From Microvirga ossetica (GTDB lineage: Bacteria; Pseudomonadota; Alphaproteobacteria; Rhizobiales; Beijerinckiaceae): DNA of 64,000 bases. Below the pieces are notes generated by a model. The model did not search any database, was not told the DNA's origin, and saw only the letters and a program-made list of their open reading frames with translations. The stretch is from NCBI RefSeq assembly GCF_002741015.1, contig NZ_CP016616.1, positions 727,501 to 791,500 of the forward strand. Reading direction: 5' to 3'. Below, piece by piece: positions 33,776 through 60,996 of the stretch (the stretch's first letter is position 1; each line of letters begins with the position of its first letter). Both the position numbers and the translations under genes were made by a program.

Positions 33776-33883
33776 CAGGCGAACCCTCCGTGTGCGTCCC
33801 AATCGGGAGCGCCGATGCTTGGAGAAGATCACAAGTTCGTCCAGTCCCTTCCATGAAGCAACAGGCATCGGAGACGGGCCGTT

Positions 33884-41497: not shown

Positions 41498-41819
41498 TGC
41501 ATCCTGCCGCCTTTGCGCAACCCGCCGGGATGGAGCGGGAGCCGACATCAGGTACGCGGGTGGCATGGACTTGATGGCGTGAGCTTCCGCAGGGCTTCGG
41601 TCCCCGACCGCGCCGGACGCGATGCCCCGAGACAGGATTGAGCACGTTACCGCATTTCGGTTGGGGCCCGCCATTCCCCGCACCGGGAAGGATCTTTCGG
41701 CACGACCTCGGGCCAATTCCCGGTCCGCCCCAGGGTTAACCCCGATAGACCCGTTGCTTGCGAGGGATAACCTGAGGGGTCAGCAAGGTCGGCCACCTTC
41801 CCTTCGAGGAGTACGTCCC
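41498..41819. other. Intergenic region, nothing recognised
   Basis: No supported gene in these 320 bases. It should contain the promoter of the AraC-type gene. Confidence 0.4.
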
Positions 41820-42938: not shown

Positions 42939-44099
42939 TCAATTGGAGCGGGACATTGCGCCGGCTCTCTGTTCACGGGCAGTCGCCGGCCGCGCCCTGA
43001 GGGGAGCCACCCGCTGGCCCGGGTGAAGGGCCTGGACACCGCCGGTGACGACGACATCGTCCGGATCGAGCCCCTGCGAGACGATCACCCGGTCGGCATC
43101 GAAGCGCAGGATGTCGACATTCCGCAGGGAAACGGTCGACGTCGCGGGATCGATGATCCACATGGCCGGCGATTGCCCGGCCTGTGTGAGAGCGCTGGCC
43201 GGAACCGCGATGACCGCCGGAGAGAGCAGTTCGATCGTGCCGATGACAGTTGATCCCAGCCGCATGGCCTCCGGAGGATCTTGCAGGCTGACCCGGACCT
43301 GGAACGTGCGGGTCACAGGGTCCGCCTGCGCGGCGATCTCGCGGACGCGCCCGACGGCGCCGACGGAACGGTCATCGGCAAGGGCAACGCGGATGACCGG
43401 ATCCTCGTCCTGCTGCTCGAGGAAACGCGCGGGGACGTTGAAGACGGCATCGCGTCCGTCGTCGCGGGCCAGTCGCACGATGGCCTGGCCCGGCTGCACG
43501 ACTTCGCCGGGCTCGGCGCTTCGGGCCGTCACCACGCCGGCAGTGCTGGATCGAAGCTCCGTGAAGCCGAGGCGATCGCGCGCCAGTTCGACACGTGCCT
43601 CGGCGTCCTCGAGGCCGGATTCGGCGGCATTCCTGGCCTGCAAGGCCTGGTCGAAGCGCGGCCGGGTCGTGAAACCCTGCGCCATGAGCTGTTCCTGGCG
43701 GTCGAAGGCATTGCGGGCCGTACCTACCTCGCCTCGCGCGGCCGACAGGGCCGCCTTCGCGGCAGTAAGGGCGTTTTGTTCGGTTTGCGGGTCCAGCCGG
43801 GCAATGAGCTGCCCGGCCGCGATCCGGTCGCTGACATTCACGGGGCGCTCCACGACGCGGCCACCGATGCGGAACGCAAGCGCGACGTTGTTCTCCGCCT
43901 GGATCTCGCCCGAGAGCTGGATATCGTTCGCCAGCTTGCTCGCCTCCACCGAGACGACATCGACAGGGCGCCCCACACCCGGCGGAGGCGTTTCAGCCTG
44001 ACCGCATGCGGCCAGTCCGGAAAGGATGACGGCGGTCATCGCCGGGCCTGATCGGAGCCATGCAGTCAATCGTGAGGTCGGGGCGGTCATAGCGGTCAT
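42939..44099 (-). CDS. RND efflux periplasmic adaptor, second copy
   Basis: Predicted 386-residue membrane-fusion protein. Lipobox-like ending LSGLAACG suggests a lipoprotein. Order: biotinyl-lipoyl half (ENNVALAFRIGGRVVERPVN), alpha-helical hairpin (about 110-180), second half (AGVVTARSAEPGEVVQPGQA), beta-barrel (about 210-280) and membrane-proximal domain. It bridges the RND pump to an outer-membrane channel. Its ATG overlaps the stop of the pump gene by four bases, so it is the third gene of the operon. It is related to, but clearly different from, the adaptor at 47179. Confidence 0.93.
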   Translation of the reverse strand: MTAMTAPTSRLTAWLRSGPAMTAVILSGLAACGQAETPPPGVGRPVDVVSVEASKLANDIQLSGEIQAENNVALAFRIGGRVVERPVNVSDRIAAGQLIARLDPQTEQNALTAAKAALSAARGEVGTARNAFDRQEQLMAQGFTTRPRFDQALQARNAAESGLEDAEARVELARDRLGFTELRSSTAGVVTARSAEPGEVVQPGQAIVRLARDDGRDAVFNVPARFLEQQDEDPVIRVALADDRSVGAVGRVREIAAQADPVTRTFQVRVSLQDPPEAMRLGSTVIGTIELLSPAVIAVPASALTQAGQSPAMWIIDPATSTVSLRNVDILRFDADRVIVSQGLDPDDVVVTGGVQALHPGQRVAPLRARPATAREQRAGAMSRSN

Positions 44100-47000: not shown

Positions 47001-47182
47001 GTATCTTCCATGGTCGCACCGGGCCAGGCCGCAGCGACGACCATCGTCTTGATGACGAAGGACGGATCCTCGTTGCGGCCAAGGCGAAAGAATGCCAAGA
47101 GACCGGCGGCAACGGCCACGATCATCAGATAGGTCACGACGGAGCGGTTCCTCAGTGCCCATCCCGACAGGTTGAAGTTCAT
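44096..47182 (-). CDS. RND-family multidrug/solute efflux pump permease
   Basis: Predicted 1028-residue inner-membrane pump of the AcrB/MexB superfamily, normal length. It has 12 membrane helices in two six-helix halves, two large periplasmic loops, and helix-4 residues with two Asp in VDDAMTTTDAMV (proton relay) within LGALIIALALLVDDAMTTTD. The sequence is closer to the shorter VexF/CzcA-like proton-driven group with dual adaptors than to AcrB. Substrate cannot be told. No TolC-type channel gene is adjacent. Both ends overlap adaptor genes by four bases (ATGA), so translation of the three genes is coupled. Confidence 0.95.
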   Translation of the reverse strand: MNFNLSGWALRNRSVVTYLMIVAVAAGLLAFFRLGRNEDPSFVIKTMVVAAAWPGATMEDTLTQVTERLERQLEETPGLDFLRSSTTPGMTTIFVNLKQSIPGSDVQDTWYQVRNLVTDIRHTLPAGTLGPFFNDRFGDTFGIIYGFTSDGFTRRELRDHVEDIRSRLLLVPDVSKIEIIGAQDERIFVEFSVRELANLGIDRTVLLTALQSQNIVRPAGALQTRNETMALRVSGAFETEADLLDVNFPVGDRMVRLADIATVQRGPADPPQPMFRVNGQEAIGLGIAMRDGGDILALGDNVRKAMAGITANLPLGIEPHLVADQAVTVDHAIADFMTSLWQSVAIILVASFVSLGVRPGLVVALSIPLTLAAVLAIMDVVDIDMQRISLGALIIALALLVDDAMTTTDAMVTRLAAGDEKEKAATYAFERYAMAMLAGTLVTIAGFVPIGFAASSAGEYTFSLFAVVSIALVISWLVAVVFAPVLGVAMLSKPKTSSADAPPGRAVVLFRRLLSGAIRARWLTIAVSIGLFVASLLALPLVPRQFFPASDRPELLVDLTMPQNASIFASEELVGRFDAALKDDPDVERWSTYVGRGAIRFYLPLNVQLPNDFFSQAVIVARDVPARERLQVKLEAMLASEFPNLVGRVYPLELGPPVGWPLQYRVTGPEIGEVRTIAMKLAQVVASNPQAKQVNFDWIEPARKLQLRVDQDEARRLGLSSAALATILNTVVSGTVVTQVRDSIYLVNVVARARDDERASIETLRTMQVALPGGRSVPLSQFVTFDYGLDTPLVWRRDRVPTLTVAADVAPGILPETAVSALAPKIDELRRTLPSSYRIDVGGTVEESAKSQASVIAVVPLMLLIMLTVLMAQLRSFKLLGLVLCIAPLGLVGVVGALLISGRPLGFVALLGVLALIGIITKNAVILIGQIEAERAGGKGVVDAALDASTTRFRPIMLTAISTVLGMIPIAPTVFWGPMAYAIMGGLLVATVLTLILLPTLYVTVFDRRSSAAAHMDAVPAAAGASGS

Positions 47183-48276
47183 TGCGGTTGCGCTCCCGGC
47201 AGACTTACGGATTGGCCCTCGCGCAGAAGACTGGCACCGGCGGTCACGATGATGTCCCCTGCTGCCAGGCCCTTCGCGACGAGGGCCGTCGAGGGACCGG
47301 CGCTAATGACATCGAGCCTGCGCCAATTGACCTTGCTTGTGCCCGGATCGACCGCCCATACGCCAATGTCCTGCCCCCGCCGCACCAGTGCCGTGGAGGG
47401 GATCGCCAGCGCCGTATCCGCGCTCCTCCGGAGGGTGCCCGAGACGGCCGTGCCAAGCCTGAACGATTGCGGCGGATCGGTGAGGCCGACACGGATGGCA
47501 AACGTTCGGGTGACGGGATCCGCCTGGGGAGCGATCTCCCGAACCCGGCCGTGGGCCTTGACGTTCGGGTCGCTGGCCAAACCGACGACGACCTCGACGT
47601 CCGGCGTTGCCGCCCGAGCCAGGTCGGCCGGGACCTCGAAAACGGCATCGCGACCGTCCCGCCGGGCGAGTTGCACGATCATCCGGCCGGCTGCGACCAC
47701 CTCACCAGGCTCCGCGCCGACTGCCGTTACGACGCCGGGCGCATCCGCCTTCAGGGTGGTGAACCCGACGACATCCTCGGCGGTCCGGACACGGGCCTCG
47801 GCCCCGTTCACCTGTGCCTGCGCCGCCGTGCGCGCTTGCTCGGCGGCCTCGAAATCGGCTCGCGTGGTGATGCCGCGTTCGAGAAGATGACGCTGCCTTT
47901 GATACTGGTTGTCCGCCTGCCCCAGGGCGCCCTGGGCCGCCGTCAGCGCCGCCCGCGCGGAGCGCAGCTCGTTGAGCTCGTTCTCCGGGTCGAGACGTGC
48001 GACCACCTCTCCCTCGCCCACCGACACTCCGACGCGGGCAGGCCTTTCGACCAACCGGCCGCCCAACCGGAACGCCAGGGATGCCTGGTCCTGGGCCTCG
48101 ATGTGGCCCGCGAAACCCACATCCGCTGACTTGACGGCAGGCTCGACCACGATGACACGGGCGGGTCGGACCGGTGCCGGCGCCTCGACCTCGGCCTGGC
48201 ACGCGGCGCACCAGAGCGCGAGGGCGACCGGAACGGCGACTTGCAACGGAGGACGAGAGCCGGAATCGAGCATCAT
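47179..48276 (-). CDS. RND efflux periplasmic adaptor, first copy
   Basis: Predicted 365-residue membrane-fusion protein, first gene of the operon. The N-terminal signal ends ALWCAACQA, a likely lipoprotein signal. Blocks: QASLAFRLGGRLVERPARVG, a helical hairpin (LRSARAALTAAQGALGQADN ... EQARTAAQAQVNGAEARVRT), APGVVTAVGAEPGEVVAAGR and PQADPVTRTFAIRVGLTDPP. Two different adaptors serving one pump suggest a hetero-adaptor complex, as in MdtA- or TriAB-type systems. The promoter should lie in 48277-48611. Confidence 0.93.
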   Translation of the reverse strand: MMLDSGSRPPLQVAVPVALALWCAACQAEVEAPAPVRPARVIVVEPAVKSADVGFAGHIEAQDQASLAFRLGGRLVERPARVGVSVGEGEVVARLDPENELNELRSARAALTAAQGALGQADNQYQRQRHLLERGITTRADFEAAEQARTAAQAQVNGAEARVRTAEDVVGFTTLKADAPGVVTAVGAEPGEVVAAGRMIVQLARRDGRDAVFEVPADLARAATPDVEVVVGLASDPNVKAHGRVREIAPQADPVTRTFAIRVGLTDPPQSFRLGTAVSGTLRRSADTALAIPSTALVRRGQDIGVWAVDPGTSKVNWRRLDVISAGPSTALVAKGLAAGDIIVTAGASLLREGQSVSLPGAQPQ

Positions 48277-48388: not shown

Positions 48389-48463
48389 ATCCCAACCCTG
48401 CGCGATGCATCCCATTTTTGGATCACGGCCCTCGCGTTGTGAGGTTCATCCCACAAATTGGGA
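48389..48463. promoter_or_regulatory. Repeated ATCCCA half-sites in a divergent promoter region
   Basis: ATCCCA occurs at 48389-48394, 48409-48414 and 48448-48453. The second is followed by TTTTTGGAT and the third by CAAATTGGGA, giving inverted repeats ATCCCATTTTTGGAT and TCCCACAAATTGGGA. The cluster lies between the RND operon and the AbgT gene and could be the operator of one regulator acting on both. Confidence 0.45.
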
Positions 48464-48611
48464 CGGCCCGTCTAAGCCTGGGACACTGCGCCGATGCATT
48501 ACCGAACGGGCACGCTAAGCTCACTTGGGTCACCGCTGGGCACCGTTGCGTCGATGCGGCTGTGGTAAGCCGGTTCCCGGCGCGACGGTCATTCCACTTG
48601 AGGCGATGGCG

Positions 48612-50183
48612 ATGGCAATCATTCACACGGCGCCCAAGTCCCTGGACACCCAGCCCAAGACCGTCATGCAGCGGTTCCTCGACGGCGTCGAACGGGTGGG
48701 GAACATGGTTCCTCACCCCGTGGTCATTTTCCTGATCCTCATCGGTATCGTCATCGTCCTCTCGGCCCTGCTCAGCCTGTTCGGCACCGCCGTCTCCTTC
48801 GAACGAATCAACCCGGACACGCACCAGGTCGAGACCGCCACCACGGAGATCCGCAGTCTGCTGAACACGGACGGCATCCGATTCCTATATTCATCGCTGA
48901 TCCCGAACTTCATGAGCTTCACCGCGGTCGGGCTGATGATTGCCGCGATGATCGGCGCCGGAGTGGCAGAGGAGTCCGGTCTGGTCACCGCACTGATCCG
49001 CAAGCTCGTCATCGTCTCACCGGCCTGGGCTCTCACCTACATTCTGTCCTTCGTCGGAATCCTCTCCAGCATCGCGGCCGATGCTGGCTATCTGGTCCTG
49101 ATTCCGCTCGCCGGCATCGCCTATCTCGCCGTCGGACGGCATCCCATTGCCGGCCTCGCGCTCGGTTTCGCTGCCGTGGCCGGGGCCTTTACCGTGAACA
49201 TGCTGATCAAGCCGCTCGACGCCGTGCTCGTCGAGTTCACCAACGACGCGGCTCATCTCGTCGATCCCAACCGCTCCATAGGCCTTACCTCGAATATCTG
49301 GTTCTCGTTCGCCTCTGTGCTGTTCCTCACCGTCGTCGTCGCCTTCATCACCGACCGGATGATCGCGCCCCGCCTGGGAACATACGATCCGAGTCTGGCA
49401 GCGGAAGGAACCACGACCGAGCAGGGCGCCGAACTGTCGGAACAGGAGTCCCGCGGCCTGCGGTTCGCCGGCATCGGGCTGCTCGGGCTGATCGCGGTCT
49501 TCTGCCTCCTGACCCTTCCTTCGGGCGCACCGTTGCGCAATTCCGACACCGGGGAGCTCATCGGCAACTCGCCGTTCATGAACGGGCTGATTGCGCTGAT
49601 CATGCTGATGTTCCTCGTCACGGGCTGGACCTACGGCATCGGCGCCGGCACGCTGAAGACGCTGCCCGAGGTGATCGCGGCGATCGAGAAGTCGATCAGG
49701 AATCTCGGCGGCACGATCTTCCTGTTCTTCGTCCTGAGCCAGTTCGTCGCCTATTTCACCTACACCAACATGGGCACGGTGATGGCGCTCAGCCTGTCGG
49801 GTGCTCTCCAGGCCGCCAATATCGGCGCGCTGCCGCTGCTGCTCGGCTTCATCGTCGTCGTCGCGATCATCGATCTGCTGCTGACCGGCGCCATCGCCAA
49901 ATGGGCGATCTTCGCCCCGGTCTTCGTGCCGCTGCTCATGAAGCTCGGGGTCGAGCCGGAAGCGGTGCTCGCAGCCTATCGCGTCGGTGACTCGCCGATG
50001 AATGCGATCACCCCCCTGAACGCCTATTTTGCGCTCATGGTCGGGTTCACGCAGAGATACGACCGGACCGCGGGCGTCGGCACCGTCGTGTCGCTGATGC
50101 TTCCCTACGTCATATGGATGTTCATTCTCTGGACCGCCCTCTTCGCCATCTGGAAGATGCTCGGGCTCCCATGGGGACTATGA
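48612..50183 (+). CDS. AbgT family transporter
   Basis: Predicted protein of about 523 residues with 9-11 membrane helices. AbgT hallmarks: RFLDGVERVGNMVPHPVVIF at the start, FTAVGLMIAAMIGAGVAEES, SIAADAGYLVLIPLAGIAYL, and AYRVGDSPMNAITPLNAYFA near the end. E. coli AbgT imports p-aminobenzoyl-glutamate; other members export sulfonamides using proton-motive force. ATG 48612 is best spaced from GAGG at 48600-48603; ATG 48606 is also possible. The next gene, a peptidase 22 bp downstream, favours uptake of a peptide-like substrate. Confidence 0.94.
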   Translation: MAIIHTAPKSLDTQPKTVMQRFLDGVERVGNMVPHPVVIFLILIGIVIVLSALLSLFGTAVSFERINPDTHQVETATTEIRSLLNTDGIRFLYSSLIPNFMSFTAVGLMIAAMIGAGVAEESGLVTALIRKLVIVSPAWALTYILSFVGILSSIAADAGYLVLIPLAGIAYLAVGRHPIAGLALGFAAVAGAFTVNMLIKPLDAVLVEFTNDAAHLVDPNRSIGLTSNIWFSFASVLFLTVVVAFITDRMIAPRLGTYDPSLAAEGTTTEQGAELSEQESRGLRFAGIGLLGLIAVFCLLTLPSGAPLRNSDTGELIGNSPFMNGLIALIMLMFLVTGWTYGIGAGTLKTLPEVIAAIEKSIRNLGGTIFLFFVLSQFVAYFTYTNMGTVMALSLSGALQAANIGALPLLLGFIVVVAIIDLLLTGAIAKWAIFAPVFVPLLMKLGVEPEAVLAAYRVGDSPMNAITPLNAYFALMVGFTQRYDRTAGVGTVVSLMLPYVIWMFILWTALFAIWKMLGLPWGL

Positions 50184-50204
50184 GCTGATGCCAGAATTCA
50201 ACGG

Positions 50205-51416
50205 ATGGAAACGATGAGCAGCTCTGCGATCCCCCTCGATGTCGCCGCCGCGGAAGATCACCTGATGCGGTTCCTCTCGGTCGAGGGCGTGACCGGACAG
50301 GAGGCCGCCATCGCGGCGGCCGTTTCCGACACGCTCAAGACGGCCGGCGTGCCGGCCTCCGCGATCCACTTCGACGAAGCGCACAGGCGCATTCCCGTGC
50401 CGACGGAAACCGGCAACCTGATCGTCGATCTGCCCGGAACGCGGCCGGGAGCGCGGCTGCTGTTCTCGACCCATCTCGACACCGTGCCGCTCTGCGCCGG
50501 CGCCAAGCCGCGGCGCGAGGGCGACCGCATCGTCGGGGACGGCACGACGGCTCTCGGCGGCGACAACCGCACCGGCTGCGCCATCCTCGTCGTCCTTGCG
50601 GAGACGCTCCTGAAGCACAACCTGCCGCATCCGCCGATCACGCTGCTCTTCACGGTCCGCGAGGAGAGCGGCCTGCACGGCGCACGCGAGCTCGATCCCG
50701 CCGATCTCGGCGGCGCCGCGATGTGCATCAACGTCGACGGCCAGGATCCGAACGATCTGATCGTCGGAGCGGTCGGCCAGGAGAACTGGCAGGTCGAGAT
50801 CACCGGCAAGGCCTCGCATGCGGGCGTCGCGCCCGAGAAGGGCATTTCCGCGACGCTGGTGGGCGCCGTCGCCCTTGCCGAGGCTAAACGCGAAGGGTGG
50901 TTCGGCAAGGTGGCGAAGGCCGGCGGCCGCGGCACCAGCAATGTCGGGATCTTCGGCGGCAAGGACGGCAAGGCCGCGGGGGACGCGACCAATGTCGTGA
51001 CCGACTACGTCTTCATCAAGGGCGAGGCGCGAAGCCCGACCTCCGCCTTCGCCGAGGCGATCGCGAAGGGTTTCGAAGCGGCATTCCGGAAGGGCGAAGA
51101 GGAAGTGAAGGACGATGAAGGCGAAACGGCGAAAGTCGCCTTCACCCATACCCCGTCCTACCCGCCGTTCAATCTGGACGAGACGGCGCCAGTGGTGCAG
51201 CGCGCGACCAGGGCCATGACCGCGCTTGGCCTCAAGCCAAACTACCTGTTCTCGAACGGCGGCCTCGATGCCAATTGGCTCGACAAGCACGGTGTCCCCA
51301 CCGTCACCATCGGCGCCGGGCAGGCGGAGATCCATACGATCAAGGAATACGTCAACTTGCCGGAATTCGCCACCGGATGCCGCCTCGCGTTGCTGCTGGC
51401 CACGATCGAGGACTAG
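50205..51416 (+). CDS. Peptidase T-like M20/M42 aminopeptidase
   Basis: Predicted 403-residue zinc peptidase. Metal ligands in order: His in LLFSTHLDTVP, bridging Asp in LGGDNRTGCA, catalytic and ligand Glu in VREESGLHG, Asp in CINVDGQDP and His in AEIHTIKEY. The dimerisation domain (about 200-310) begins EITGKASHAG. It would remove amino acids from tri- or dipeptides in the cytoplasm. Start may be ATG 50214 rather than 50205. It stands 22 bp after the AbgT gene, so the pair probably imports and then hydrolyses a peptide or aminoacyl conjugate. Confidence 0.93.
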   Translation: METMSSSAIPLDVAAAEDHLMRFLSVEGVTGQEAAIAAAVSDTLKTAGVPASAIHFDEAHRRIPVPTETGNLIVDLPGTRPGARLLFSTHLDTVPLCAGAKPRREGDRIVGDGTTALGGDNRTGCAILVVLAETLLKHNLPHPPITLLFTVREESGLHGARELDPADLGGAAMCINVDGQDPNDLIVGAVGQENWQVEITGKASHAGVAPEKGISATLVGAVALAEAKREGWFGKVAKAGGRGTSNVGIFGGKDGKAAGDATNVVTDYVFIKGEARSPTSAFAEAIAKGFEAAFRKGEEEVKDDEGETAKVAFTHTPSYPPFNLDETAPVVQRATRAMTALGLKPNYLFSNGGLDANWLDKHGVPTVTIGAGQAEIHTIKEYVNLPEFATGCRLALLLATIED

Positions 51417-51535
51417 GTGGGCAGCGACATCACGCCGTTTGATCCAGGTCCCCGTCGTCGGCTCATGCTGCGACGCCGTCCCCTCTCGCTGTTCGCCGAC
51501 GACATGTCCGAACGGCCCCACGGGGAGATGAGCGG

Positions 51536-53365
51536 TTGAGTCCCATCGCTTCCATCGCTGCCATTATCGCCGCTGCCGTCGTCCTGTTCATCTGGAACAG
51601 GCTGCCGGTCGTCGTCGTCGCCATGGGCACCGCGCTCGCCTTGTGGGCGACGCAGGTCCTCACGCTGGGTCAGGCGCTGGGCGGCTTCGGCGATCCGGCC
51701 GTCATCTTCATCGCCTGCCTCTTCATCGTCAGCGCCGGGCTCGAGACGACGGGGGTCACCGCATGGGCCGGGCAGCTTCTGATCCGCGGCGCCGGCAAGG
51801 AGAGCCGGACGCGCCTCCTCCTTCTCACCATGAGCCTCGTGGCCGTACTGACCGCCTTGATCAGCGTCAACGGCGCCGTCGCTGCCCTGCTGCCGGTCGT
51901 GGTCGTCATGGCGGTGCGCCTGAAACGGAAGTCGTCGCAGCTTCTGATGCCGCTCGTCTTCTCCGCCCATGCGGGATCGATGCTCGCGCTGACCGGCACG
52001 CCGGTGAACGTCCTCGTCTCCGAGGCAGGGCTCGAGGCCGGCGTGGGTGGGTTCGGCTTCTTCGAGTTCGCCCTCGTCGGCATTCCGCTGCTCGCCGGCA
52101 CGATGGCGATCATCGTCCTCTTCGGCGAGCGCCTCCTGCCCCAGCGCAACGGCGCCAAGATGCCGGCCGACCTCAGCCGCCATGCCAGGACGCTGGTGGA
52201 GCAATACGGTCTCGCCGACGGCATCTTCCAGATGCAGGTGCGCGCGACCTCGCCCTATGTCGGTCTTTCTCCGTCCGGCATCGATCTCTCGTCCTTTCCG
52301 GGCGTACAGCTCGTCGCCGTCCAGGAGGGCGAGAGCGCCGCACCGCTGCGCCGTCCCGTGGAGGACGGCGATCAGATGCTCGTGCGCGGGCATGCCGAAG
52401 CCGCCGCTTCCCTCGCCGCGCGGATGCATCTCTCGTTCCGCGAGGATGTCGCATCGGGCCAGGGTGAAGAGACCCTGTTCAATCGTCAGTCAGGCCTGGC
52501 CGAGGTGGTGATCCCACCACGCTCGGGCCTCGTCGGCCAGACCGTGTTCCCGGGCATGGTCACCGAGAGCGGCGACCTCGTCGTTCTCGCGGTGCAACGG
52601 GCCGGAGCCGAGGCCGGCGCCGCCAACCAGGTTTCCGGTCGCGGCATCGCGTTGCGCGCCGGCGACACCATGCTGCTCCAGGGAACCTGGAAGGCCCTCG
52701 ATGTTCACCTCAGCGATCCGGACGTGCTGGTGGTCAACTCGCCCGAGCTCGTGCGGCGCCAGGCCGTGCCCATGGGACCGGGCGCCTATCGGGCGATTGC
52801 CGTGCTGATCGGTATGGTGTTCCTGCTCGCGACCGGTCTCGTGCCGCCCGCCGTCGCCGGCCTTCTCGCCGCCGGCGCCATGGTCCTGTCCCGGATCCTG
52901 ACCGTCGAGCAATCCTACCGCGCCATCGACTGGACGACGGTGATCCTCGTCGGTGCGCTGATGCCGCTATCGACGGCAATGGTGCAAACGGGAGCGGCGC
53001 AGCTCATGGCCGAAGGCCTGGTCGGGCTCGTCGGCGACGCCGGGCCCGTTGCCCTGCTCGCTGGCCTTTTCCTTCTCACCGCCGTCATGGGCCAGTTGAT
53101 CAGCAACACCGCGACCGCGCTGATCGTCATCCCCATCGGCATGGCGGCCGCGGCGAGCATGGGGATCTCGCCGCGCCCCGTTCTCATGAGCACCGCGGTG
53201 GCCGCCGCCGGTGCCTTCCTGACCCCCATCGCGACGCCGACCAACCTGATGGTCATGGGGCCGGCAGGATACGCGTTCGGCGATTACTGGAAGCTCGGCC
53301 TGCCGCTGCTCCTCTGGTTCTTCGTCGTGTCGGTTTTCCTCGTGCCGCTGATCTGGCGGTTCTGA
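51536..53365 (+). CDS. SLC13/CitT-type permease with TrkA-C (RCK_C) domains, copy 1
   Basis: Predicted 609-residue inner-membrane transporter. The membrane halves (1-205 and 415-609) have the DASS/ArsB-NhaD fold, including ALTGTPVNVLV and ISNTATALIVIPIGMAAAAS then FLTPIATPTNLMVMGPAGYA. Two soluble RCK_C domains (about 215-300 and 305-390) interrupt them. Such proteins are Na+- or H+-coupled anion transporters or Na+/H+ antiporter-like carriers with ligand gating. TTG 51536 has GGGGAG eight bases upstream. It precedes mrpE by 21 bp and is probably cotranscribed. Confidence 0.92.
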   Translation: MSPIASIAAIIAAAVVLFIWNRLPVVVVAMGTALALWATQVLTLGQALGGFGDPAVIFIACLFIVSAGLETTGVTAWAGQLLIRGAGKESRTRLLLLTMSLVAVLTALISVNGAVAALLPVVVVMAVRLKRKSSQLLMPLVFSAHAGSMLALTGTPVNVLVSEAGLEAGVGGFGFFEFALVGIPLLAGTMAIIVLFGERLLPQRNGAKMPADLSRHARTLVEQYGLADGIFQMQVRATSPYVGLSPSGIDLSSFPGVQLVAVQEGESAAPLRRPVEDGDQMLVRGHAEAAASLAARMHLSFREDVASGQGEETLFNRQSGLAEVVIPPRSGLVGQTVFPGMVTESGDLVVLAVQRAGAEAGAANQVSGRGIALRAGDTMLLQGTWKALDVHLSDPDVLVVNSPELVRRQAVPMGPGAYRAIAVLIGMVFLLATGLVPPAVAGLLAAGAMVLSRILTVEQSYRAIDWTTVILVGALMPLSTAMVQTGAAQLMAEGLVGLVGDAGPVALLAGLFLLTAVMGQLISNTATALIVIPIGMAAAASMGISPRPVLMSTAVAAAGAFLTPIATPTNLMVMGPAGYAFGDYWKLGLPLLLWFFVVSVFLVPLIWRF

Positions 53366-53386
53366 TCGGCCAACCGGTGATCACCA

Positions 53387-53923
53387 ATGAGCGACACAGA
53401 TTCGGACCGTGACAATACCAAGCCCCCCTTCCGGTCACACGGAGTGGTCAGCCTCTGGGCCGTGCTCTTCGTCGTGTGGATGGTTGCCAATTCCACCCTG
53501 GCGGTCGTCGTCGTGCTGCTCGGCGCGGCGATCACGCTGCCCATCGCCTGGATCTTCGCCTCCTCCGGCGGCCCCTGGAACCGGATCCGCTGGACTCCCG
53601 ACGGGCTCCTTCACTTCTCGCTCTACGGCGCGACGTTTCTCGTCGAGCTCGTCAAAGCCAACATCACCATGATGCGCTACGTCTATGCGCGGCGGATCGA
53701 TATCAAGCCGGGCATCGTCAAGGTCCGCACACGTCTCAAATCGCCGATCGGCCGCCTGGCCCTTGCCAATACGATTGCGCTGACGCCGGGCTCGCTCGTG
53801 ATGGAGTTGAGGGGCGACACGCTCTTCATCCACCTGCTCGATATCGACGGCATCGACGCCGACGCGACGACCGATGCAATCGTCACCCCCTTCGAAAGGC
53901 ATTTGGAGCACGTCTTTGGCTGA
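53387..53923 (+). CDS. mrpE: Mrp/Mnh antiporter subunit E
   Basis: Predicted 178-residue protein: two or three N-terminal helices (LWAVLFVVWMVANSTLAVVV), FSLYGATFLVELVKANITMM and the soluble C-terminal domain with LANTIALTPGSLVMELRGDT and LFIHLLDID. These are the MnhE blocks. It is a membrane subunit of the multisubunit Na+/H+ antiporter. First of the Mrp-type genes here; its 3' end overlaps subunit F by eight bases. Confidence 0.93.
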   Translation: MSDTDSDRDNTKPPFRSHGVVSLWAVLFVVWMVANSTLAVVVVLLGAAITLPIAWIFASSGGPWNRIRWTPDGLLHFSLYGATFLVELVKANITMMRYVYARRIDIKPGIVKVRTRLKSPIGRLALANTIALTPGSLVMELRGDTLFIHLLDIDGIDADATTDAIVTPFERHLEHVFG

Positions 53924-54176
53924 AACCATCGTTCAGCTCGCGGCTGTCCTTATCCTCGGCGCCATCCTGCTTGGGATCACTCGGCTGATGCTCGGCCCGA
54001 CTCTGATCGACCGCATCGTCGCGATCGATATGCTGACGATCATCGCGATCTCGCTCATCGTCCTGTATGCCCATGTTTCGGGACGGTTCGTGTATATCGA
54101 TGTCGCCCTCGTCTATGGATTGCTGAGCTTCCTGGCGGTGCTGGCGCTCGCGCGCTTTCTCGAGAAGGGACTCTAG
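53916..54176 (+). CDS. mrpF: Mrp/Mnh antiporter subunit F
   Basis: Predicted 86-residue protein with three membrane helices and the MnhF motif RLMLGPTLIDRIVAIDMLTI. TTG 53916 is chosen because GGAG at 53905-53908 is well placed and relatives begin near ETIVQLAAVLILG; the earlier ATG 53874 would add 14 residues inside mrpE. Forms part of the Mrp membrane complex. Confidence 0.9.
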   Translation: MAETIVQLAAVLILGAILLGITRLMLGPTLIDRIVAIDMLTIIAISLIVLYAHVSGRFVYIDVALVYGLLSFLAVLALARFLEKGL

Positions 54177-54179
54177 CGC

Positions 54180-54428
54180 ATGCTCCAGCTTCTCATCCTG
54201 GTGGTCTGCGCCGGCATTCTTGTCAGCGGGCTTCTTGCGGTGTGCCTGAACAACCTCATTGCCGCGATGGTGAGCTCGGGCCTGGCCAGCCTGCTCGCGT
54301 CGGTGTCGTTCCTGCTGCTCGCGGCTCCGGACGTGGCGATGGCGGAGGCGGCGATCGGATCGGGCCTCACCACCTTCATCTTCATCTATGCCCTCCGCCA
54401 TGCCGGTCAGGGGGGACATGAACCATGA
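54180..54428 (+). CDS. MbhD/DUF4040-type subunit (separate MrpA C-terminal piece)
   Basis: Predicted 82-residue protein with three helices and the DUF4040 block LLAAPDVAMAEAAIGSGLTT. In classical Mrp systems this domain is part of the large MrpA subunit; as a free-standing gene it is the arrangement of Mbh/Mbs complexes and group-3 Mrp antiporters. It begins three bases after subunit F and overlaps subunit G by four bases. Confidence 0.9.
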   Translation: MLQLLILVVCAGILVSGLLAVCLNNLIAAMVSSGLASLLASVSFLLLAAPDVAMAEAAIGSGLTTFIFIYALRHAGQGGHEP

Positions 54429-54769
54429 TCGAGCTGACCGGAAGCCTGTTGATCCTGTCCGGCGCCGTATTCCTGTTCTCGGCCGGCCTCGGCCTCGTGC
54501 GTATGCCGGACGCCTACACCCGCATCCAGGCAGGAACAAAGGCGACGACGCTGGGCAACATATTGATCGTGATCGGCCTTGCCTTCTATCATCCGGAATG
54601 GACCCTCAAGCTGGTCCTCGTCATCTTCTTCGTCCTGCTGACGAATCCCGTCTCCTCCCATGCCCTGTCGCGCGCCGCACATCGGATCCGCACGCCGATG
54701 GCCTCGGCAACCGTGACGGACGCGCTTGCCGACGATGAGACGGCGGGCGGATCGGGGGGAGCGGCATGA
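54425..54769 (+). CDS. mrpG: Mrp/Mnh antiporter subunit G
   Basis: Predicted 114-residue protein with three helices: LTGSLLILSGAVFLFSAGLG, then LVRMPDAYTRIQAGTKATTL and LVLVIFFVLLTNPVSSHALS. The RMPDAYTRIQA-x-TK motif is diagnostic for MnhG. Both ends overlap neighbours by four bases (ATGA), indicating translational coupling. Confidence 0.93.
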   Translation: MIELTGSLLILSGAVFLFSAGLGLVRMPDAYTRIQAGTKATTLGNILIVIGLAFYHPEWTLKLVLVIFFVLLTNPVSSHALSRAAHRIRTPMASATVTDALADDETAGGSGGAA

Positions 54770-55458
54770 TCTATCGTGCGGGCGTGCTGTTTACCGTCGC
54801 ATTGTTCGGACTGATCTTCGTCCGTCTGGCCAGCAGCTATGCGGAACGGTCGACCCTGCGTCCCCTTGCGGAGCATTACGTGTCGCAGGCCCCCGTCGAA
54901 CTCGGTGTCGCGAACATCGTCACCGGGATTCTCATCGCCTATCGCGGCTTCGATACGCTGGGTGAGGTTGCCGTGCTCTTCATGGTCGCGGCCAGCGTCG
55001 GCCTGCTGCTCAGGAAGGACGAAGCCGGCCGGAGGGATCCGGAGGAACGTCGGCGCGGGCCCGCCAGCGAGATCGTGACGACCGGCTCTCGGGTCCTGCT
55101 GCCCGTGATCCTCACCTTCGGCGCCTACGTCATCGTCAACGGCCACCTGTCCGCCGGTGGCGGGTTCCAGGGCGGAGCCATCGTCGCCTCCGGGGTCATG
55201 CTGCTGCTCCTGGCCGACCCGGGAGCACGGCTCAACGCCGCGGCGTTGAGCGTGATCGAATCCCTTGCCGGCATGGCGTATGTCGCGATCGGCATGATCG
55301 GACTGGTCCTGGCCGGGGGCTTCCTCGACCCTCGGTTCCTGCCGCCGGGCGAGGTTGGTGCCTTCATCAGCGCGGGCGCCATTCCGCTGGTCTCGGCATT
55401 GCTCGGCATCAAGGTCGGGGCAGAGCTCAGTGTCATCATCAACCGCTTCCGAAGTTGA
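54766..55458 (+). CDS. MbhE plus MnhB fusion subunit
   Basis: Predicted 230-residue protein. Residues 1-90 resemble MbhE (SQAPVELGVANIVTGILIAY, RGFDTLGEVAVLFMVAASVG). Residues 105-228 are the MnhB domain (PVILTFGAYVIVNGHLSAGG, GFQGGAIVASGVMLLLLADP). In Mrp antiporters these parts are the C terminus of MrpA and the separate MrpB. Here they are joined and detached from the antiporter module. It lies between subunits G and C. Confidence 0.9.
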   Translation: MIYRAGVLFTVALFGLIFVRLASSYAERSTLRPLAEHYVSQAPVELGVANIVTGILIAYRGFDTLGEVAVLFMVAASVGLLLRKDEAGRRDPEERRRGPASEIVTTGSRVLLPVILTFGAYVIVNGHLSAGGGFQGGAIVASGVMLLLLADPGARLNAAALSVIESLAGMAYVAIGMIGLVLAGGFLDPRFLPPGEVGAFISAGAIPLVSALLGIKVGAELSVIINRFRS

Positions 55459-55470
55459 GCGATCGAGTCC

Positions 55471-55842
55471 ATGGCAACGATCCTACCGGTATCCTCCATC
55501 CTGCTGGTCACAGGCTTCGGGCTCTCCCTGATCGGCCTTTGCGGCATCCTGATGCACCGCCACCTGCTTCGCATCATCATCGGGTTCGCCCTGTTCGGCA
55601 CCGGTCTCCACATCGTCATCGTTGCAACCGGCTATGTAACCGGCGGCACAGCACCGATCATCGACCGTGCGCTCGGCCCGGCCGAGGCAGGGCATGCGAT
55701 CGACCCCATCCCTTCCGCGTTGGTGGTGACGGCCATCGTCATCGGCTTCGCCGTGACGTCCATCATGCTCGCTTATGCAGTCCGTCTCCATTCGGCCAAG
55801 AAGACCTTCGACATCGGTACCTTCACGGAGCCGAAATGGTAG
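55471..55842 (+). CDS. mrpC: Mrp/Mnh antiporter subunit C (NuoK-like)
   Basis: Predicted 123-residue three-helix protein of the NuoK/MnhC family: LVTGFGLSLIGLCGILMHRH, then LLRIIIGFALFGTGLHIVIV and DPIPSALVVTAIVIGFAVTS. The D-P-x-P-x-A-L-V-x-T-A-I-V-I block is diagnostic. The next gene starts inside its last codons. Confidence 0.93.
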   Translation: MATILPVSSILLVTGFGLSLIGLCGILMHRHLLRIIIGFALFGTGLHIVIVATGYVTGGTAPIIDRALGPAEAGHAIDPIPSALVVTAIVIGFAVTSIMLAYAVRLHSAKKTFDIGTFTEPKW

Positions 55843-58800
55843 CGAGCCTGTTCCATCCGCTGAACATATTCGTTCTTGGACTGGCAGGCGGATTCGCCAT
55901 TCCGCTGCTCGTTCGGATCGGTGCTGCGTGGCTTTCAGTGGGGTTCTTCATCGCACTCGTCGGGATTGGGGTCATCAGCGCCGTTTCGCTGCTTCGCGTT
56001 CTCGGCGGCGAGCCCCCCATCGATATCCTCACGGCAGGATCGCTGCCGCCTGTCTCGATCAGTCTGCGCCTTGGCCCGTCCGAAGGATTTGTCGCCGCAA
56101 GCGTCAATGTCATTGCCATCCTGGGAGCGCTGCATCTTTGGGATCGGCTGCGTGGCAACTACGCGGCGTTGCTGCTCTATCTGGGCCTCACCATGGGCAT
56201 CAACGGCATGGTGATGACCCGGGATCTCTTCAATCTCTTCGTCTTCCTGGAGATCGTCTCCATTGCGACCTATGGACTTCTCGGGCTTGAGCGAACACCG
56301 GCCGCGTTGGGAGCGGCGTTCAAGTTCATCATGGCGACAGTCATCGCGTCGTCGTTATTCATGCTCGGCACCGGTCTGCTCTATTATGTCACCGGCACTC
56401 TCAGCATCGATACCCTGGTTGCCGCCAAGTCCGACATCACCGGTCCAATCGGCGCGGCTGCTCTGCTTCTCCTGCTTGCCTGCCTCGTCATCGAACTGAA
56501 GCCTTTCCCCGCCAATGGCTGGGGACTCGACGTCTATGAGACCGCGCCGAACGGCGTCGCCGCGATGATCTCCGTCGGTGTTTCCGCCGGCGTGTTCTTC
56601 TCGCTCGTGAAACTGCTTCCCCTCTTCGAGGACCAGCTCCCCATCCTCGCCGTCTCGGGCGGAGCCACGTTCCTGTTCTCCAACCTGATCGGCTTGAAGC
56701 AGTCCAACATCCAGCGGCTCCTCGGCTATTCGTCGATCGGTCAAATGGGCCTGCTCCTCCTCGGGTTGGCGCTTCTGCATCAGGTCGGCGCTCTGGCATC
56801 GATACCGCTGGTGGTGGGTGGCCTGTTCTTGAATCATCTTCTCGCCAAGGCCGGACTCTTCTGGATCGCAGCAGTGATCCGGCAGCGCGATCTCGACAAG
56901 GCTGTCGGCCTCGCCGGCCGCCCATTCCTCGCGGGGCTGCTGACCCTCTTCCTCGTGGCCATCGCCGGCCTGCCGCCCTTTCCCGGGTTCTGGGCCAAAT
57001 GGGAGCTGGTCATGCAACTGACCGGCGCTGCCGAGCTGCCCTGGGTCGCGCTGATCCTCTGCGGTTCGCTGCTGGAAGCTGCGTATATGTTCCGCTGGTT
57101 CACCCGCGCCCTCTGCACGCAGGAAAGCGGACCGACAGAGATGCCGTCTGCCGCCGCGTTGTTCCCCATCGTGGCCGTCGCGCTCCTGCTGTGCGTCTCC
57201 GGCTATGTCGCGGCACGCGCCTCCGGAGCAGGCGAACCCTGGATGTTCGGCCCGCTCCTTGCCGGCACCGTCCTCTATGCGCTCGACCGCATGCCGGGCC
57301 GGGCAAAGAATGTGCTGATGCTTGCCGTCGTCCTTGTCGTCGGCGGTCTCCTGGCGCAAGCCACCCAGGGCATTGCCTGGCTCTTCGCGATCCTGCTCCT
57401 GGCTGGCAGCCTCGTCATCGCCGCGGCGGGATTGTACAGGGACGATGAACGCCCCGGCTACTATCCGATGCTGGCGATCCTCCTGCTGTCCATCCAAGCG
57501 CTGCTTCGATCGTCGACGAGCCTGGAGTTCTTCTTCAGTTGGGAGATCGTAACTCTCTCGACCTGCTTCCTGATCGCGAAGGGCCGGGGCGCGGGGCCGC
57601 ATGTGCTGAGCTTCCTGCTGTTCTCTTTGCTGTCCGCCTTTCTTGTGCTGGCGGGTTTCGCCGGTATCGCCGCGATCAGCGGCTCGACCAGCCTGGGCGC
57701 GCTGATGACGAGCGGCCCGGACGCCAGCGTCGCTTTCGCGCTCCTCGCGGTCGGCTTCCTGATCAAGGCGGGTGCGATCGGCGTGCATGTCTGGCTGCCG
57801 GGAGCCTATTCCGAGGCAGATGACGACTTCACCGCGATGGTGTCAGGCGTTGTCAGCAAGGTTGCGGTCTTCGGTCTGCTTATGGGGACCTACCTCGCGA
57901 TCCGGTCCGAGGTGGGGCTGGAGCTCGCGCATGCGATGGCCTGGCTCGGCATGCTGACAACGATTGCCGGAGCCTTGATGGCGCTCCGACAGACCGATTT
58001 CAAATGCCTCCTTGCGCTCTCCAGCATGAGCCAGCTCGGCTACATCGTCACCGCAATCGCGCTGATGAGCCATCTCGGCTGGGTCACCGCGCTCTATCTC
58101 GTCGCGAACCACATGATGGTGAAAGGAATCCTCTTCCTCGCCGTCGCCGGAATTATTCTGCGCACGGGCTCGCGCAGCTTCCCGAACGCGGGCGGGCTCC
58201 TCCGCGCAATGCCGGTAACCTTCGCCACCGTGCTCGTCGCCGTCATTTCGATGTCGGGTCTGCCGCCCCTGATGGGCTTCGGTGGCAAGTGGTTGCTGTT
58301 GAGCGCCATGACGGAGAAAGGCTGGCACTTTCTCGCCGTCGCGGGGCTCGTGGCGACCTTCCTCGGCTTCCTCTACATGATCCGTCTCGTCAGCGGCCTC
58401 TTCTTTGGGCCGTATAGGAGCGAGCAGGTGAAAGTCAGCGAGGCGCCAATGACTCTCCTCGTTCCGCAACTCGTGCTGATCGCGGGTATCCTCGTTCTTT
58501 CACTCTACCCGAAGTTGCTGATGGATCCCGTTTCCGCTGCAATCGACCCGCAATTTGCCTCGACGCTGGTCTGGGAGGGGATGTCCCTGGAGACGATCTA
58601 TGGCTACTGGAATCCGACGCCGATCATGATTATCGCTTTGATGGTCGCGGCGGTCCTCGGACTGATCGCCTGGCTCGCATATTCCGGCAACCGGCGGAAT
58701 GTCGTCGATCTTCGTCGGTTCTTCGCCTTCTATCGTCCGGTCATCGGCTTCGCATCGCCTCCTGTTGCCATCGTCTTCTGGCGGAGCATCGCGGACGGCA

Positions 58801-58940
58801 CGCTTGCCGCCGCGAATTTGGCCCGAGGAGTCTATTCCGGCAACGGCCAGACCTATGCCCTGCATGTGCTGCTCTATTTCCTGGTCATCTATGTCACGAG
58901 CACCGGACTCGCGGGGATATGGGCCGGGGGCTGGCCGTGA
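55836..58940 (+). CDS. Double antiporter-module subunit (MrpD-like and MrpA/D-like in one chain)
   Basis: Predicted 1034-residue membrane protein. Two Proton_antipo_M modules follow one another. Module 1 (about 100-430) has DLFNLFVFLEIVSIATYGLL near residue 130, a lysine in FSLVKLLPLF near 257 and QRLLGYSSIGQMG near 290. Module 2 (about 540-880) has FFFSWEIVTLSTCFLIAKG near 562, FLIKAGAIGVHVWLPGAYSE near 641, CLLALSSMSQLGYIV near 722 and HMMVKGILFLAV near 758. Each keeps the Glu of the membrane helix and the central Lys needed for proton or sodium translocation. In usual Mrp clusters these are two genes. The ORF is continuous; ATG 55836 overlaps subunit C by seven bases. Confidence 0.93.
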   Translation: MVASLFHPLNIFVLGLAGGFAIPLLVRIGAAWLSVGFFIALVGIGVISAVSLLRVLGGEPPIDILTAGSLPPVSISLRLGPSEGFVAASVNVIAILGALHLWDRLRGNYAALLLYLGLTMGINGMVMTRDLFNLFVFLEIVSIATYGLLGLERTPAALGAAFKFIMATVIASSLFMLGTGLLYYVTGTLSIDTLVAAKSDITGPIGAAALLLLLACLVIELKPFPANGWGLDVYETAPNGVAAMISVGVSAGVFFSLVKLLPLFEDQLPILAVSGGATFLFSNLIGLKQSNIQRLLGYSSIGQMGLLLLGLALLHQVGALASIPLVVGGLFLNHLLAKAGLFWIAAVIRQRDLDKAVGLAGRPFLAGLLTLFLVAIAGLPPFPGFWAKWELVMQLTGAAELPWVALILCGSLLEAAYMFRWFTRALCTQESGPTEMPSAAALFPIVAVALLLCVSGYVAARASGAGEPWMFGPLLAGTVLYALDRMPGRAKNVLMLAVVLVVGGLLAQATQGIAWLFAILLLAGSLVIAAAGLYRDDERPGYYPMLAILLLSIQALLRSSTSLEFFFSWEIVTLSTCFLIAKGRGAGPHVLSFLLFSLLSAFLVLAGFAGIAAISGSTSLGALMTSGPDASVAFALLAVGFLIKAGAIGVHVWLPGAYSEADDDFTAMVSGVVSKVAVFGLLMGTYLAIRSEVGLELAHAMAWLGMLTTIAGALMALRQTDFKCLLALSSMSQLGYIVTAIALMSHLGWVTALYLVANHMMVKGILFLAVAGIILRTGSRSFPNAGGLLRAMPVTFATVLVAVISMSGLPPLMGFGGKWLLLSAMTEKGWHFLAVAGLVATFLGFLYMIRLVSGLFFGPYRSEQVKVSEAPMTLLVPQLVLIAGILVLSLYPKLLMDPVSAAIDPQFASTLVWEGMSLETIYGYWNPTPIMIIALMVAAVLGLIAWLAYSGNRRNVVDLRRFFAFYRPVIGFASPPVAIVFWRSIADGTLAAANLARGVYSGNGQTYALHVLLYFLVIYVTSTGLAGIWAGGWP

Positions 58941-59175
58941 GCACCGATGCAGCGTCCCGCACGACATCGTCGGCTGGGCGGAATGGCGCGGCCGAGTGAT
59001 GCCGGACCGTGCAATGAGAAGGGGGGCAGGGTTGATGGCTTGACCCCATGTCCCACGACCGTGCCAAGCGTCCCATTGAGTCGTCGCCGCCCGGGAATTT
59101 GGTTGCCGCCAGCGCTGCGCCGACCCAATCTGGTGCTCACCAGCGCAACGATCGGCCGTACGAAGAAATCCTGGA

Positions 59176-60996
59176 ATGCCTGAACTTGCTGTCACCCTCG
59201 GCCTGCTTGCCGCCGCGATCGTGATGTTCGCCATCAACAAGCCTCGCCTTGACGCCGTGGCGCTGATCATGCTCACGGCGCTGCCCCTGACAGGCGTGCT
59301 CACGATGCAGGAAGCGCTCGCAGGCTTCAGCGATCCCAACATTGTCCTGATTGCCGCCCTGTTCGTGATCGGAGAGGGATTGGTGCGAACGGGCGTGGCC
59401 CAGGGGCTCGGCGATTGGCTGACCGCAAAGGCCGGGGCGAACGAACTGCGCTTGACAACTCTCCTGATGACGGTCGTCTGCGCGCTCGGAGCTACCATGA
59501 GTTCGACGGCCGTGACGGCAATCTTCATCCCGGTGGCGCTGCGGATCGCCCAAGGCACGGGCATCCCGCCTGGCCGATTGATGATGCCGATCAGCTTCGC
59601 GGCCCTGATCAGCGGGATGACGACCCTGGTCGCAACGGCGCCGAACCTCGTGGTCAACAGCGAACTCGAGCGTCACGGCATCGCGGGCTTTTCGTTCTTC
59701 AGCTTCACGCCGTTCGGCGTTCCCATCCTGGTGCTGGGCATCATCTACATGGCGTTCGCGCGACGCTGGTTGCCGGCTGAAAATCGGGCGAGGACCGTCA
59801 ACCGGCCGACATTCGCGACCTGGGTCGACGAGTATGGGCTCGCGGACCGCGAATACCGTCTTCTCGTGACCGATCGCTCGCCGCTCGCCGGCAGGACCTT
59901 GGAGGAACTCGACCTGCGGGGCTCGTCCGGGGCAAACATCATCGCCATAGAGAGAAGCCGCAACTTCTCGAGGGAGCTGCTACGGCCGACCGCAAAAATG
60001 GAAATCGAGGTCGGCGATGTCCTGCTGATCGACTTGTTTTCGGATAGCAGGGGCATCCAGTCCATTCGCGACGATTTCCTCCTCGAGGAGTTGCCGCTGG
60101 AGGGGACCTATTTCAGCGATCGTTCGCAGGAGATCGGATTGGCGGAAGTCATCGTGCCGCCATCGTCGGATCTGGTTGGACGGTCGGTGATCGAAGCGCA
60201 TTTCCGGAGTCGCTTCGGACTTTCGGCGATCGGCCTCAGGCGGGGCCGTATCGTGCACGACCGAAGTCTCGTCAACGAAAGGCTCGACGTCGGCGACATG
60301 CTCCTGCTCGTCGGGACCTGGAGCGATATCGAGCAACTTCGGTCGGACGATGGAGACCTGGCGATCATCCGGCTCCCCGCCGAACTCGACGAGGTTCTCC
60401 CGGTCCCCGGAAAGGCCCTTCAGGCGGTTGCTTGTCTGGTGCTCGTCGTCGGGCTGATGGTCAGCGGGGTCATTCCGAACGTGCACGCTGCGTTGATCGG
60501 GTGCCTGCTGATGGGTCTGCTGGGGTGCATCGACCTTCCCAGCGCCTATCGCTCCATCGACTGGAAAACCATCGTTCTCATCGTCGGCATGCTGCCGTTC
60601 TCGATCGCGTTGCAGAGGACCGGAGGAGTGGACTTGGCCGCCGACGCCCTCATGGCACTCATCAGCGAAGCCGGGCCCCGTGTGATCCTTGGAGCCCTCT
60701 TTCTCATCACCGCGCTGCTCGGCATGTTCATCTCCAACACCGCGACAGCGGTCCTGATGGCGCCGGTCGCCCTTGCGGTGGCCAAGGATCTGAACGCTTC
60801 GCCGTATCCCTTTGCCATGATCGTCGCCTTGGCCGCCTCAACCGCTTTCATGACGCCTGTCTCGTCGCCGGTGAACACCCTCGTCGTCGGCCCAGGGAGC
60901 TATTCGTTCGGAGATTTCATAAGGCTTGGCGTGCCTTTCTCCATCCTCGTCCTTATCGTTTGCGTGATCATGGTGCCTTGGGTCCTGCCGATGTAG
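59176..60996 (+). CDS. SLC13/CitT-type permease with TrkA-C domains, copy 2
   Basis: Predicted 606-residue transporter with the same architecture as copy 1: membrane halves (1-200, 415-606) around two RCK_C domains (about 215-300 and 320-395). Landmarks are FSDPNIVLIAALFVIGEGLV, SSTAVTAIFIPVALRIAQGT, LVATAPNLVVNSELERHG and FISNTATAVLMAPVALAVAK with PVSSPVNTLVVGPGSYSFGD. The two copies are diverged paralogues, not a recent duplication. It lies 235 bp after the antiporter gene in the same direction, with a weak ribosome site. Confidence 0.92.
   Translation: MPELAVTLGLLAAAIVMFAINKPRLDAVALIMLTALPLTGVLTMQEALAGFSDPNIVLIAALFVIGEGLVRTGVAQGLGDWLTAKAGANELRLTTLLMTVVCALGATMSSTAVTAIFIPVALRIAQGTGIPPGRLMMPISFAALISGMTTLVATAPNLVVNSELERHGIAGFSFFSFTPFGVPILVLGIIYMAFARRWLPAENRARTVNRPTFATWVDEYGLADREYRLLVTDRSPLAGRTLEELDLRGSSGANIIAIERSRNFSRELLRPTAKMEIEVGDVLLIDLFSDSRGIQSIRDDFLLEELPLEGTYFSDRSQEIGLAEVIVPPSSDLVGRSVIEAHFRSRFGLSAIGLRRGRIVHDRSLVNERLDVGDMLLLVGTWSDIEQLRSDDGDLAIIRLPAELDEVLPVPGKALQAVACLVLVVGLMVSGVIPNVHAALIGCLLMGLLGCIDLPSAYRSIDWKTIVLIVGMLPFSIALQRTGGVDLAADALMALISEAGPRVILGALFLITALLGMFISNTATAVLMAPVALAVAKDLNASPYPFAMIVALAASTAFMTPVSSPVNTLVVGPGSYSFGDFIRLGVPFSILVLIVCVIMVPWVLPM

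Follow-up and report, generated by a model that had tools for sequence, protein, structure and literature searches.

What holds together a run of transport genes at about positions 48606–60996 of a stretch of the Microvirga ossetica genome, and what is the antiporter-like complex at its centre? The stretch, hereafter the window, is 64,000 nucleotides long (positions 727501–791500 of contig C1, NZ_CP016616.1; genome of 9.63 Mb in six contigs). An earlier note had described the run as AbgT, peptidase T, two SLC13/TrkA-C carriers, and Mrp/Mbh-type antiporter subunits, and had read it as a self-contained module in which the antiporter powers or balances the uptake of anions and peptide-like substrates and RCK_C domains would provide ligand gating. 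Pfam and NCBIfam scans found every gene named there, all on the forward strand, with neighbours overlapping or separated by 3–235 nt. The observation is confirmed and its interpretation is partly supported ("half right"); what it overlooked is the relation of the antiporter to a respiratory membrane arm. We consider it likely that the core of the run (53387–58940) is a membrane arm of the type seen in the membrane-bound sulfane sulfur reductase (MBS), that its redox arm was lost once, and that it is now a stand-alone Mrp-like antiporter, placed under shared operators among the Microvirga carriers.

The nearest structural relatives of the core point to MBS. In a PDB search, both halves of the double antiporter (DD), the MbhE–MrpB fusion (MbhE-B), and MrpE found their best match in the MBS of Pyrococcus furiosus (6U8Y). 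All of the membrane-arm subunits A, B, C, D, E, G, H, and H′ of MBS are matched, A, E, H, and H′ by this search. We take MrpF to be the counterpart of MbsB, MrpG that of MbsC, and MrpC that of MbsG, and MbhD was assigned to MbsD by its family name. The C-terminal tail of DD is the part that forms transmembrane helix (TMH) 15, a loop, helix HL, and TMH16 in MBS. The window locus thus resembles MBS in its set of membrane-arm families and in the MbsE-type fusion, but differs in having H and H′ in one chain, in missing the TMH8 lysine of MbsH, in coming from soil alphaproteobacteria, and in the absence of the redox arm MbsJ, K, L, M, and N: no match of the NuoH, NuoB, NuoC, NuoD, or GltD type was found in the window. 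The genome holds a single NuoH, about 5 Mb away and near complex I antiporter genes. As for the gene boundaries, the listed open reading frame 55455–58940 opens within MrpC, and the true MrpC and DD start at 55471 and 55836; the length of DD equals that of database entry P0001. MrpF most likely starts at the TTG at 53916 (86 residues, following the annotation of Rhizobium SL42) instead of at 53874, and AbgT at the ATG at 48606 or 48612.

Loci were collected by a best DD piece of more than 250 bits, and five redox genes were sought in them: NuoH, NuoB, NuoC, NuoD, and a NuoI–GltD flavoprotein. At 23 loci DD is at most 45% identical to that of the window, and NuoH starts 0–51 nt past the DD alignment in all 21 with downstream sequence; at the other two (L037 and L041) the sequence stops at DD. 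The full redox set is present in 15 loci, and the remaining six are cut by contig ends. The NuoH- and NuoD-like proteins of these loci are nearest to MbsM and MbsL. The redox-bearing relatives (L028–L036, L038–L040, L042, L044, and L117–L123) belong to Rhodobacterales, Marinimicrobia, Bacteroidetes, Spirochaetes, and others. With the window they have in common a fused DD and the set of E, F, G, MbhD, MbhE-B, and C, but their DD is 35–45% identical, their gene order is F–G–MbhD, and NuoH follows, with NuoB–C–D and the NuoI–GltD flavoprotein where the sequence allows. At the 36 loci with DD identity of at least 52%, window included, none of the five redox genes was found; each of these loci has 2.9 kb or more of sequence downstream. 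The core gene order is common to all 36 loci of this clade, and because it recurs in this way the gene set is not a chance assembly.

A tree of 58 DD sequences (35 stand-alone, 19 redox-bearing, one unknown, and three outgroups) placed the stand-alone sequences in one clade (SH-like support of the split 1.000). Next to it, and within the redox-bearing set, stand the redox-bearing L028 (NuoH only; 0.982) and L044 (full set; 0.946). The three outgroups, in which H and H′ are unfused, carry redox genes. The gene order is F–MbhD–G in 36 of 36 stand-alone loci. It is F–G–MbhD in five of five unfused loci and in all of the redox-clade loci where both genes are visible (21 of 23). For the sequences sampled here, the tree, the gene order, and the redox-bearing outgroups together would be explained most simply by a single loss of the redox arm.

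A trace of this loss may be visible in DD itself. When column entropy along DD was compared between the 35 stand-alone and 19 redox-bearing sequences, kinship being ignored, the stand-alone columns were better conserved on average (difference −0.20 bit), and the strongest reversal among 25-residue segments fell at residues 950–974 (+1.50 bit; standard deviation of segment means 0.45). The alignment is nearly gap-free at 945–980. The reversed segment, which is predicted by the structural model to sit between helices 928–951 and 975–999, corresponds to the TMH15–16 loop of MbsH′, and this loop, according to an excerpt of PMC7684303, links the pumping module to the peripheral module that is anchored in the membrane. 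Four of the eight positions that are fixed in redox-bearing and free in stand-alone sequences fall at 945–969. Judged from this alignment, the part of DD where constraint appears most relaxed is precisely the counterpart of the loop by which the redox arm is docked in MBS. Residues E139, E220, K222, H334, and K388 in the first half and E570, K644, K675, H759, and K818 in the second half are kept in all 35 stand-alone sequences. K259, which lies two helical turns beyond the position of MbsH TMH8 K250, is kept in 34 of the 35.

Several points weigh against this reading. Subunits B, C, D, and G were matched to MBS by Pfam family and family name only. L045 and L053, both unfused, share the core genes (E–F–G–MbhD–MbhE/B–C, plus extra antiporter genes), and none of the five redox genes was found in either; they were left out of the tree, so that redox-free versions exist outside the clade, and with denser sampling its root might fall elsewhere. 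The redox arm of L028 is visible as NuoH only, where contig ends intervene, the placement of L030 has a support of 0.594, and the entropy comparison disregards kinship. The K250 position is Ser, Ala, or Thr in the stand-alone sequences and non-Lys in the redox-bearing ones too; the first half of DD may therefore use a modified path and may not conduct as MbsH does. Promoter and terminator scans gave no excess over shuffles, which makes any operon limits tentative.

The loci L045 and L053 also bear on another origin, in which the core is an irregular "group 3" Mrp (CPA3) antiporter with a duplicated D subunit, from a lineage that never had a redox arm. Mrp groups 1–3, including clusters with two mrpD genes in cyanobacteria and Microbacterium, are covered in an excerpt of PMC5703873. 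Like the Mrp/Mnh/Pha antiporters, the core has B, C, E, F, G, and D-like parts and two antiporter-fold units, and it stands alone; unlike them, it has no single-chain MrpA, since the antiporter half of MrpA is fused to a D-like half and the MbhD/MbhE-type tail is encoded by separate MbhD and MbhE-B genes. We regard this origin as improbable: DD, MbhE-B, and MrpE are nearest to MBS and not to Mrp chains, redox genes are present in the nearest sisters and in each of the three outgroups used, and the docking loop is relaxed.

Under the MBS-derived reading, the seven-gene core would encode the membrane arm of an MBS-type, complex I-like respiratory enzyme of bacteria, and the redox arm would have been lost on a single occasion, in the common ancestor of a clade made up mainly of Hyphomicrobiales. 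On its own, the core would most likely act as a monovalent cation/H+ antiporter: DD would supply both proton-conducting units within a single chain, the cation-path module would consist of MbhD, MbhE-B, C, E, F, and G, and the proton gradient would be spent to expel Na+ or K+. In Microvirga, the core would have been set downstream of an independently occurring AbgT–M20–SLC13 cassette and upstream of a second SLC13 gene. The run and a divergent RND pump would be under tandem operators with 20-bp phasing, perhaps bound by a nearby AraC-type regulator. The run may be transcribed as an operon, and the antiporter might lend energetic help to AbgT or SLC13.

Whether the whole run is a unit was examined in relatives. 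Among 48 genomes of the genus, DD occurs in five, M20 in 12, and SLC13b in five. DD and SLC13b are found in the same five genomes, all of which also have M20, and SLC13b occurs in the genus only together with the antiporter. In all five DD carriers AbgT–M20–SLC13a and SLC13b lie beside DD, and the gene run agrees in L021 (Microvirga sp. 3-52) and L136–L138; in G777 (L137) the cassette is scrambled between N runs, and in G793 SLC13b is partial (1–396 of 606).

The cassette also occurs without the antiporter. A second AbgT–M20–SLC13a copy in the same genome (C1, about 1674287–1679101; L124), with 90–95% protein identity, has no antiporter; AI-2E- and DUF1269-like genes (46% and 40%) lie near it. 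The three genes stand in order at 13 of 13 fetched loci (L140–L152) from the 14 M20-bearing Rhizobiaceae genomes without DD, one of which was not fetched; in L152 AbgT is cut by a contig end. The DD-free genomes of the genus have the cassette at seven of seven loci (L169–L175), with SLC13a inverted in L175. It is also present in Phyllobacterium zundukense and on pSymA of S. meliloti, where SLC13a (L103, 11298–13134) lies in three pieces with no single frame and is probably a broken gene. On this genomic evidence, AbgT–M20–SLC13a is an autonomous cassette.

The antiporter, in turn, occurs without the cassette. A draw from the R. tibeticum family covered 346 genomes, the centre genome among them. 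DD was found in 14, M20 in 19, and both in five, where about 0.8 would be expected (Fisher p = 4e-4, rising to 0.003 minus the centre genome, which was picked for having both; kinship ignored). Linkage is seen in five of the 14 DD carriers, with DD and M20 7–8 kb apart in four and about 20 kb apart in G570; the other nine have no M20 orthologue at E 1e-100. In a draw from the order (397 genomes), DD was found in 18 and M20 in 26, and the window's genome was the only one with the two together. None of the remaining 17 DD genomes (10 stand-alone and seven redox-bearing) shows the linkage or has an M20 orthologue at the same threshold. Five of seven named genomes have the antiporter alone, with M20 absent at E 1e-60: two Burkholderia/Paraburkholderia, Rhizobium GN54, Chelatococcus, and Pseudochelatococcus. 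A divergent gene lies between SLC13a and MrpE in Rhizobium SL42, tibeticum, and T136. The product of this gene in SL42 is 61% identical to a pentapeptide-repeat protein (PF13576) encoded at 32096–33868 of the window, a homologue of which also lies near the locus in L177, L179, and L180.

These distributions bear on the idea of one functional module, in which the antiporter builds a Na+ gradient for the uptake of anions and peptide-like substrates by AbgT and SLC13. The conserved set in the five genus carriers, the excess co-occurrence in Rhizobiaceae, the repeats common to AbgT and SLC13b (below), and the lack of a further Mrp-type chain by PF00361 in the genome speak for it. We nevertheless hold it to be unlikely, given the cassette without antiporter in the very same genome, the antiporters without an M20 orthologue, and the divergent gene between SLC13a and MrpE. 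The self-containment claimed in the earlier note is not supported either. Its view of the run as one unit holds inside the genus, where the linkage is kept and the genes are probably co-regulated, and fails outside it, where the linkage is mostly absent. From the loci compared, the run is a composite of separable cassettes that forms a unit in one genus, and not a single widely conserved module. The PF00361 matches in the window's genome are DD (two matches) and three complex I genes, with no canonical MrpA or MrpD; several genomes of the genus carry long MrpA-looking frames.

Co-regulation in Microvirga is suggested by tandem repeats. Against an expectation of 0.02, the window has two copies of the motif TGGGAC-N14-TGGGAC, one upstream of AbgT and the other upstream of SLC13b, and a TGGGAT pair stands beside the first in the divergent AbgT/HlyD region. 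The motif was picked after sight, so that the enrichment in the window is post hoc; the independent part of the evidence is the conservation in relatives, the five loci being related, and the genome count. TGGGAY-N14-TGGGAY has seven matches in the genome, three of them at this locus, and the reversed control has none. The fetched loci, 1.64 Mb in all, contain eight exact TGGGAC pairs, every one of them upstream of AbgT or SLC13b in antiporter-bearing loci of the genus. The AbgT pair is present in five of these five loci; the SLC13b pair is exact in three and loose in L021, and was not seen in L136. The AbgT pair is absent from the eight genus loci without antiporter, including the second copy. 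No such pair lies upstream of MrpE, which fits read-through from SLC13a across a 21-nt gap. A spacing of about 20 bp between direct repeats fits AraC-family proteins, and each of the five antiporter-bearing genus loci has an AraC-type gene in the vicinity of its RND genes. The run is probably co-regulated in Microvirga. A bolder scenario, in which an MBS-type arm shed its electron-transfer arm, spread in soil and nodule bacteria, and in Microvirga was rewired to an AraC-type operator of its own so as to power the AbgT and SLC13 carriers, seems doubtful to us.

The RND genes raise the possibility of a detoxification or stress island, in which AraC-regulated RND efflux, an AbgT exporter, and SLC13 with the antiporter serve against membrane or pH stress and nutrient uptake is secondary. 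RND/HlyD genes recur near the core (window, L021, L022, L024, L101, L112, and others), a DUF900 hydrolase, arginine deiminase, and amino-acid permeases are found in the neighbourhood of several cores, and the AbgT relatives 4r0c and 4r1i are sulfonamide exporters. The EcfG-type stress promoter pattern, on the other hand, occurs once in the window, at 26475, against 0.89 expected. We consider this role conceivable, though short of an even chance. An arginine deiminase and amino-acid permeases were seen near the stand-alone antiporter in L024, L105, L112, L116, L129–L131, and L133–L135 (by clustering, and by Pfam in L112 only), which suggests a pH-stress role. A DUF900 alpha/beta hydrolase gene stands beside the antiporter genes in 15 loci, e.g. 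L112, L129, and L101 (by Pfam in L101), and a DUF1576 protein gene precedes them in five of five loci L107–L111 (G418, G395, G345, G268, and G407; by Pfam in L109).

Features of the locus in window coordinates, with the evidence for each
Feature	Position	Strand	Basis
AraC-family regulator (HTH_18), candidate locus regulator	41622..42821	+	Pfam; homologue (66–80%) near HlyD1/RND in 4/4 other antiporter-bearing genus loci; regulatory role presumed
HlyD, RND permease, HlyD, divergent from AbgT	42939..48276	-	Pfam; RND and HlyD2 in same position in L021, L136–L138
Operator-like tandem repeat TGGGAT-N14-TGGGAT	48389..48414	-	Second pair in 5/5 antiporter-bearing genus loci
Operator-like tandem repeat TGGGAC-N14-TGGGAC, upstream of AbgT	48459..48484	+	Pattern search
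AbgT-family transporter	48606..50183 (alternative start 48612)	+	PF03806, 528 bits; sole PDB relatives 4r0c, 4r1i
M20 metallopeptidase, PepT-like superfamily	50205..51416	+	Pfam/NCBIfam; best PDB relative 3gb0_A (named Peptidase T)
SLC13a, SLC13/DASS (SLC13/CitMHS) permease, marginal TrkA_C	51536..53365	+	Pfam; TrkA_C 27.5 vs cut-off 27
MrpE (MbsA-like)	53387..53923	+	PF01899; best PDB relative 6u8y_A (MbsA)
MrpF	53916..54176	+	PF04066; start suggested by relatives
MbhD	54180..54428	+	PF13244
MrpG	54425..54769	+	PF03334
MbhE–MrpB (MnhB) fusion, MbsE-like	54766..55458	+	Pfam; 6u8y_E, 32–227 to 32–227
MrpC	55471..55842	+	PF00420
DD, double antiporter, 1034 residues: MbsH-like half fused to MbsH′-like half	55836..58940	+	Two Proton_antipo_M stretches
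Operator-like tandem repeat TGGGAC-N14-TGGGAC, upstream of SLC13b	59050..59075	-	Pattern search
SLC13b, SLC13 permease with two TrkA_C stretches	59176..60996	+	Pfam

The labels given earlier to the flanking genes need some adjustment. "Peptidase T" is right at the level of the M20 superfamily and in the name of the nearest PDB entry, but the nearest model is TIGR01883 ("PepT-like"; 180 bits against a cut-off of 274) and the protein falls below the cut-offs of the PepT models listed. Both carriers are SLC13 permeases, with two TrkA_C stretches in SLC13b and a marginal one in SLC13a. The E. coli p-aminobenzoyl-glutamate system, an operon of AbgT, AbgA, and AbgB, also has AbgT beside an M20-family hydrolase; the run differs in having only one M20 gene with AbgT, PepT-like, and an SLC13 partner, and is not an abg operon. 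As to group 4 membrane-bound hydrogenases, the window has no NuoD/NuoB-type match; a genome-wide search for hydrogenase families was not made.

In the literature searched, we recognised no description of a fused H–H′ membrane arm without a redox arm, and found none of the bacterial MBS-like complexes of several phyla with fused H–H′ and a NuoI–GltD flavoprotein (L029–L044 and L117–L123). Excerpts of the complex I survey PMC12361115 contain nothing we found on this group, and those of the Rhizobium sp. SL42 genome paper (PMC12993520) have mrp genes in a table row. MBS and a proposed route to it from Mrp appear in the excerpt of PMC7684303, and the abstract of PMC7419157 and excerpts of PMC7684303 present respiratory complexes as descendants of Mrp antiporters.

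If our reading is true, the stand-alone clade runs opposite to this usual story from antiporter to respiratory complex. In this clade both pump units retain their charged residues even as the docking loop has shed its constraint, and the clade would be a natural experiment on a membrane arm without electron transfer. The redox-bearing and stand-alone versions, about 37% identical, would form a pair for finding the residues that couple electrons to ions. For M. ossetica, the analysis puts a probable name to an uncharacterised antiporter, the only Mrp-type chain by PF00361 in its genome.

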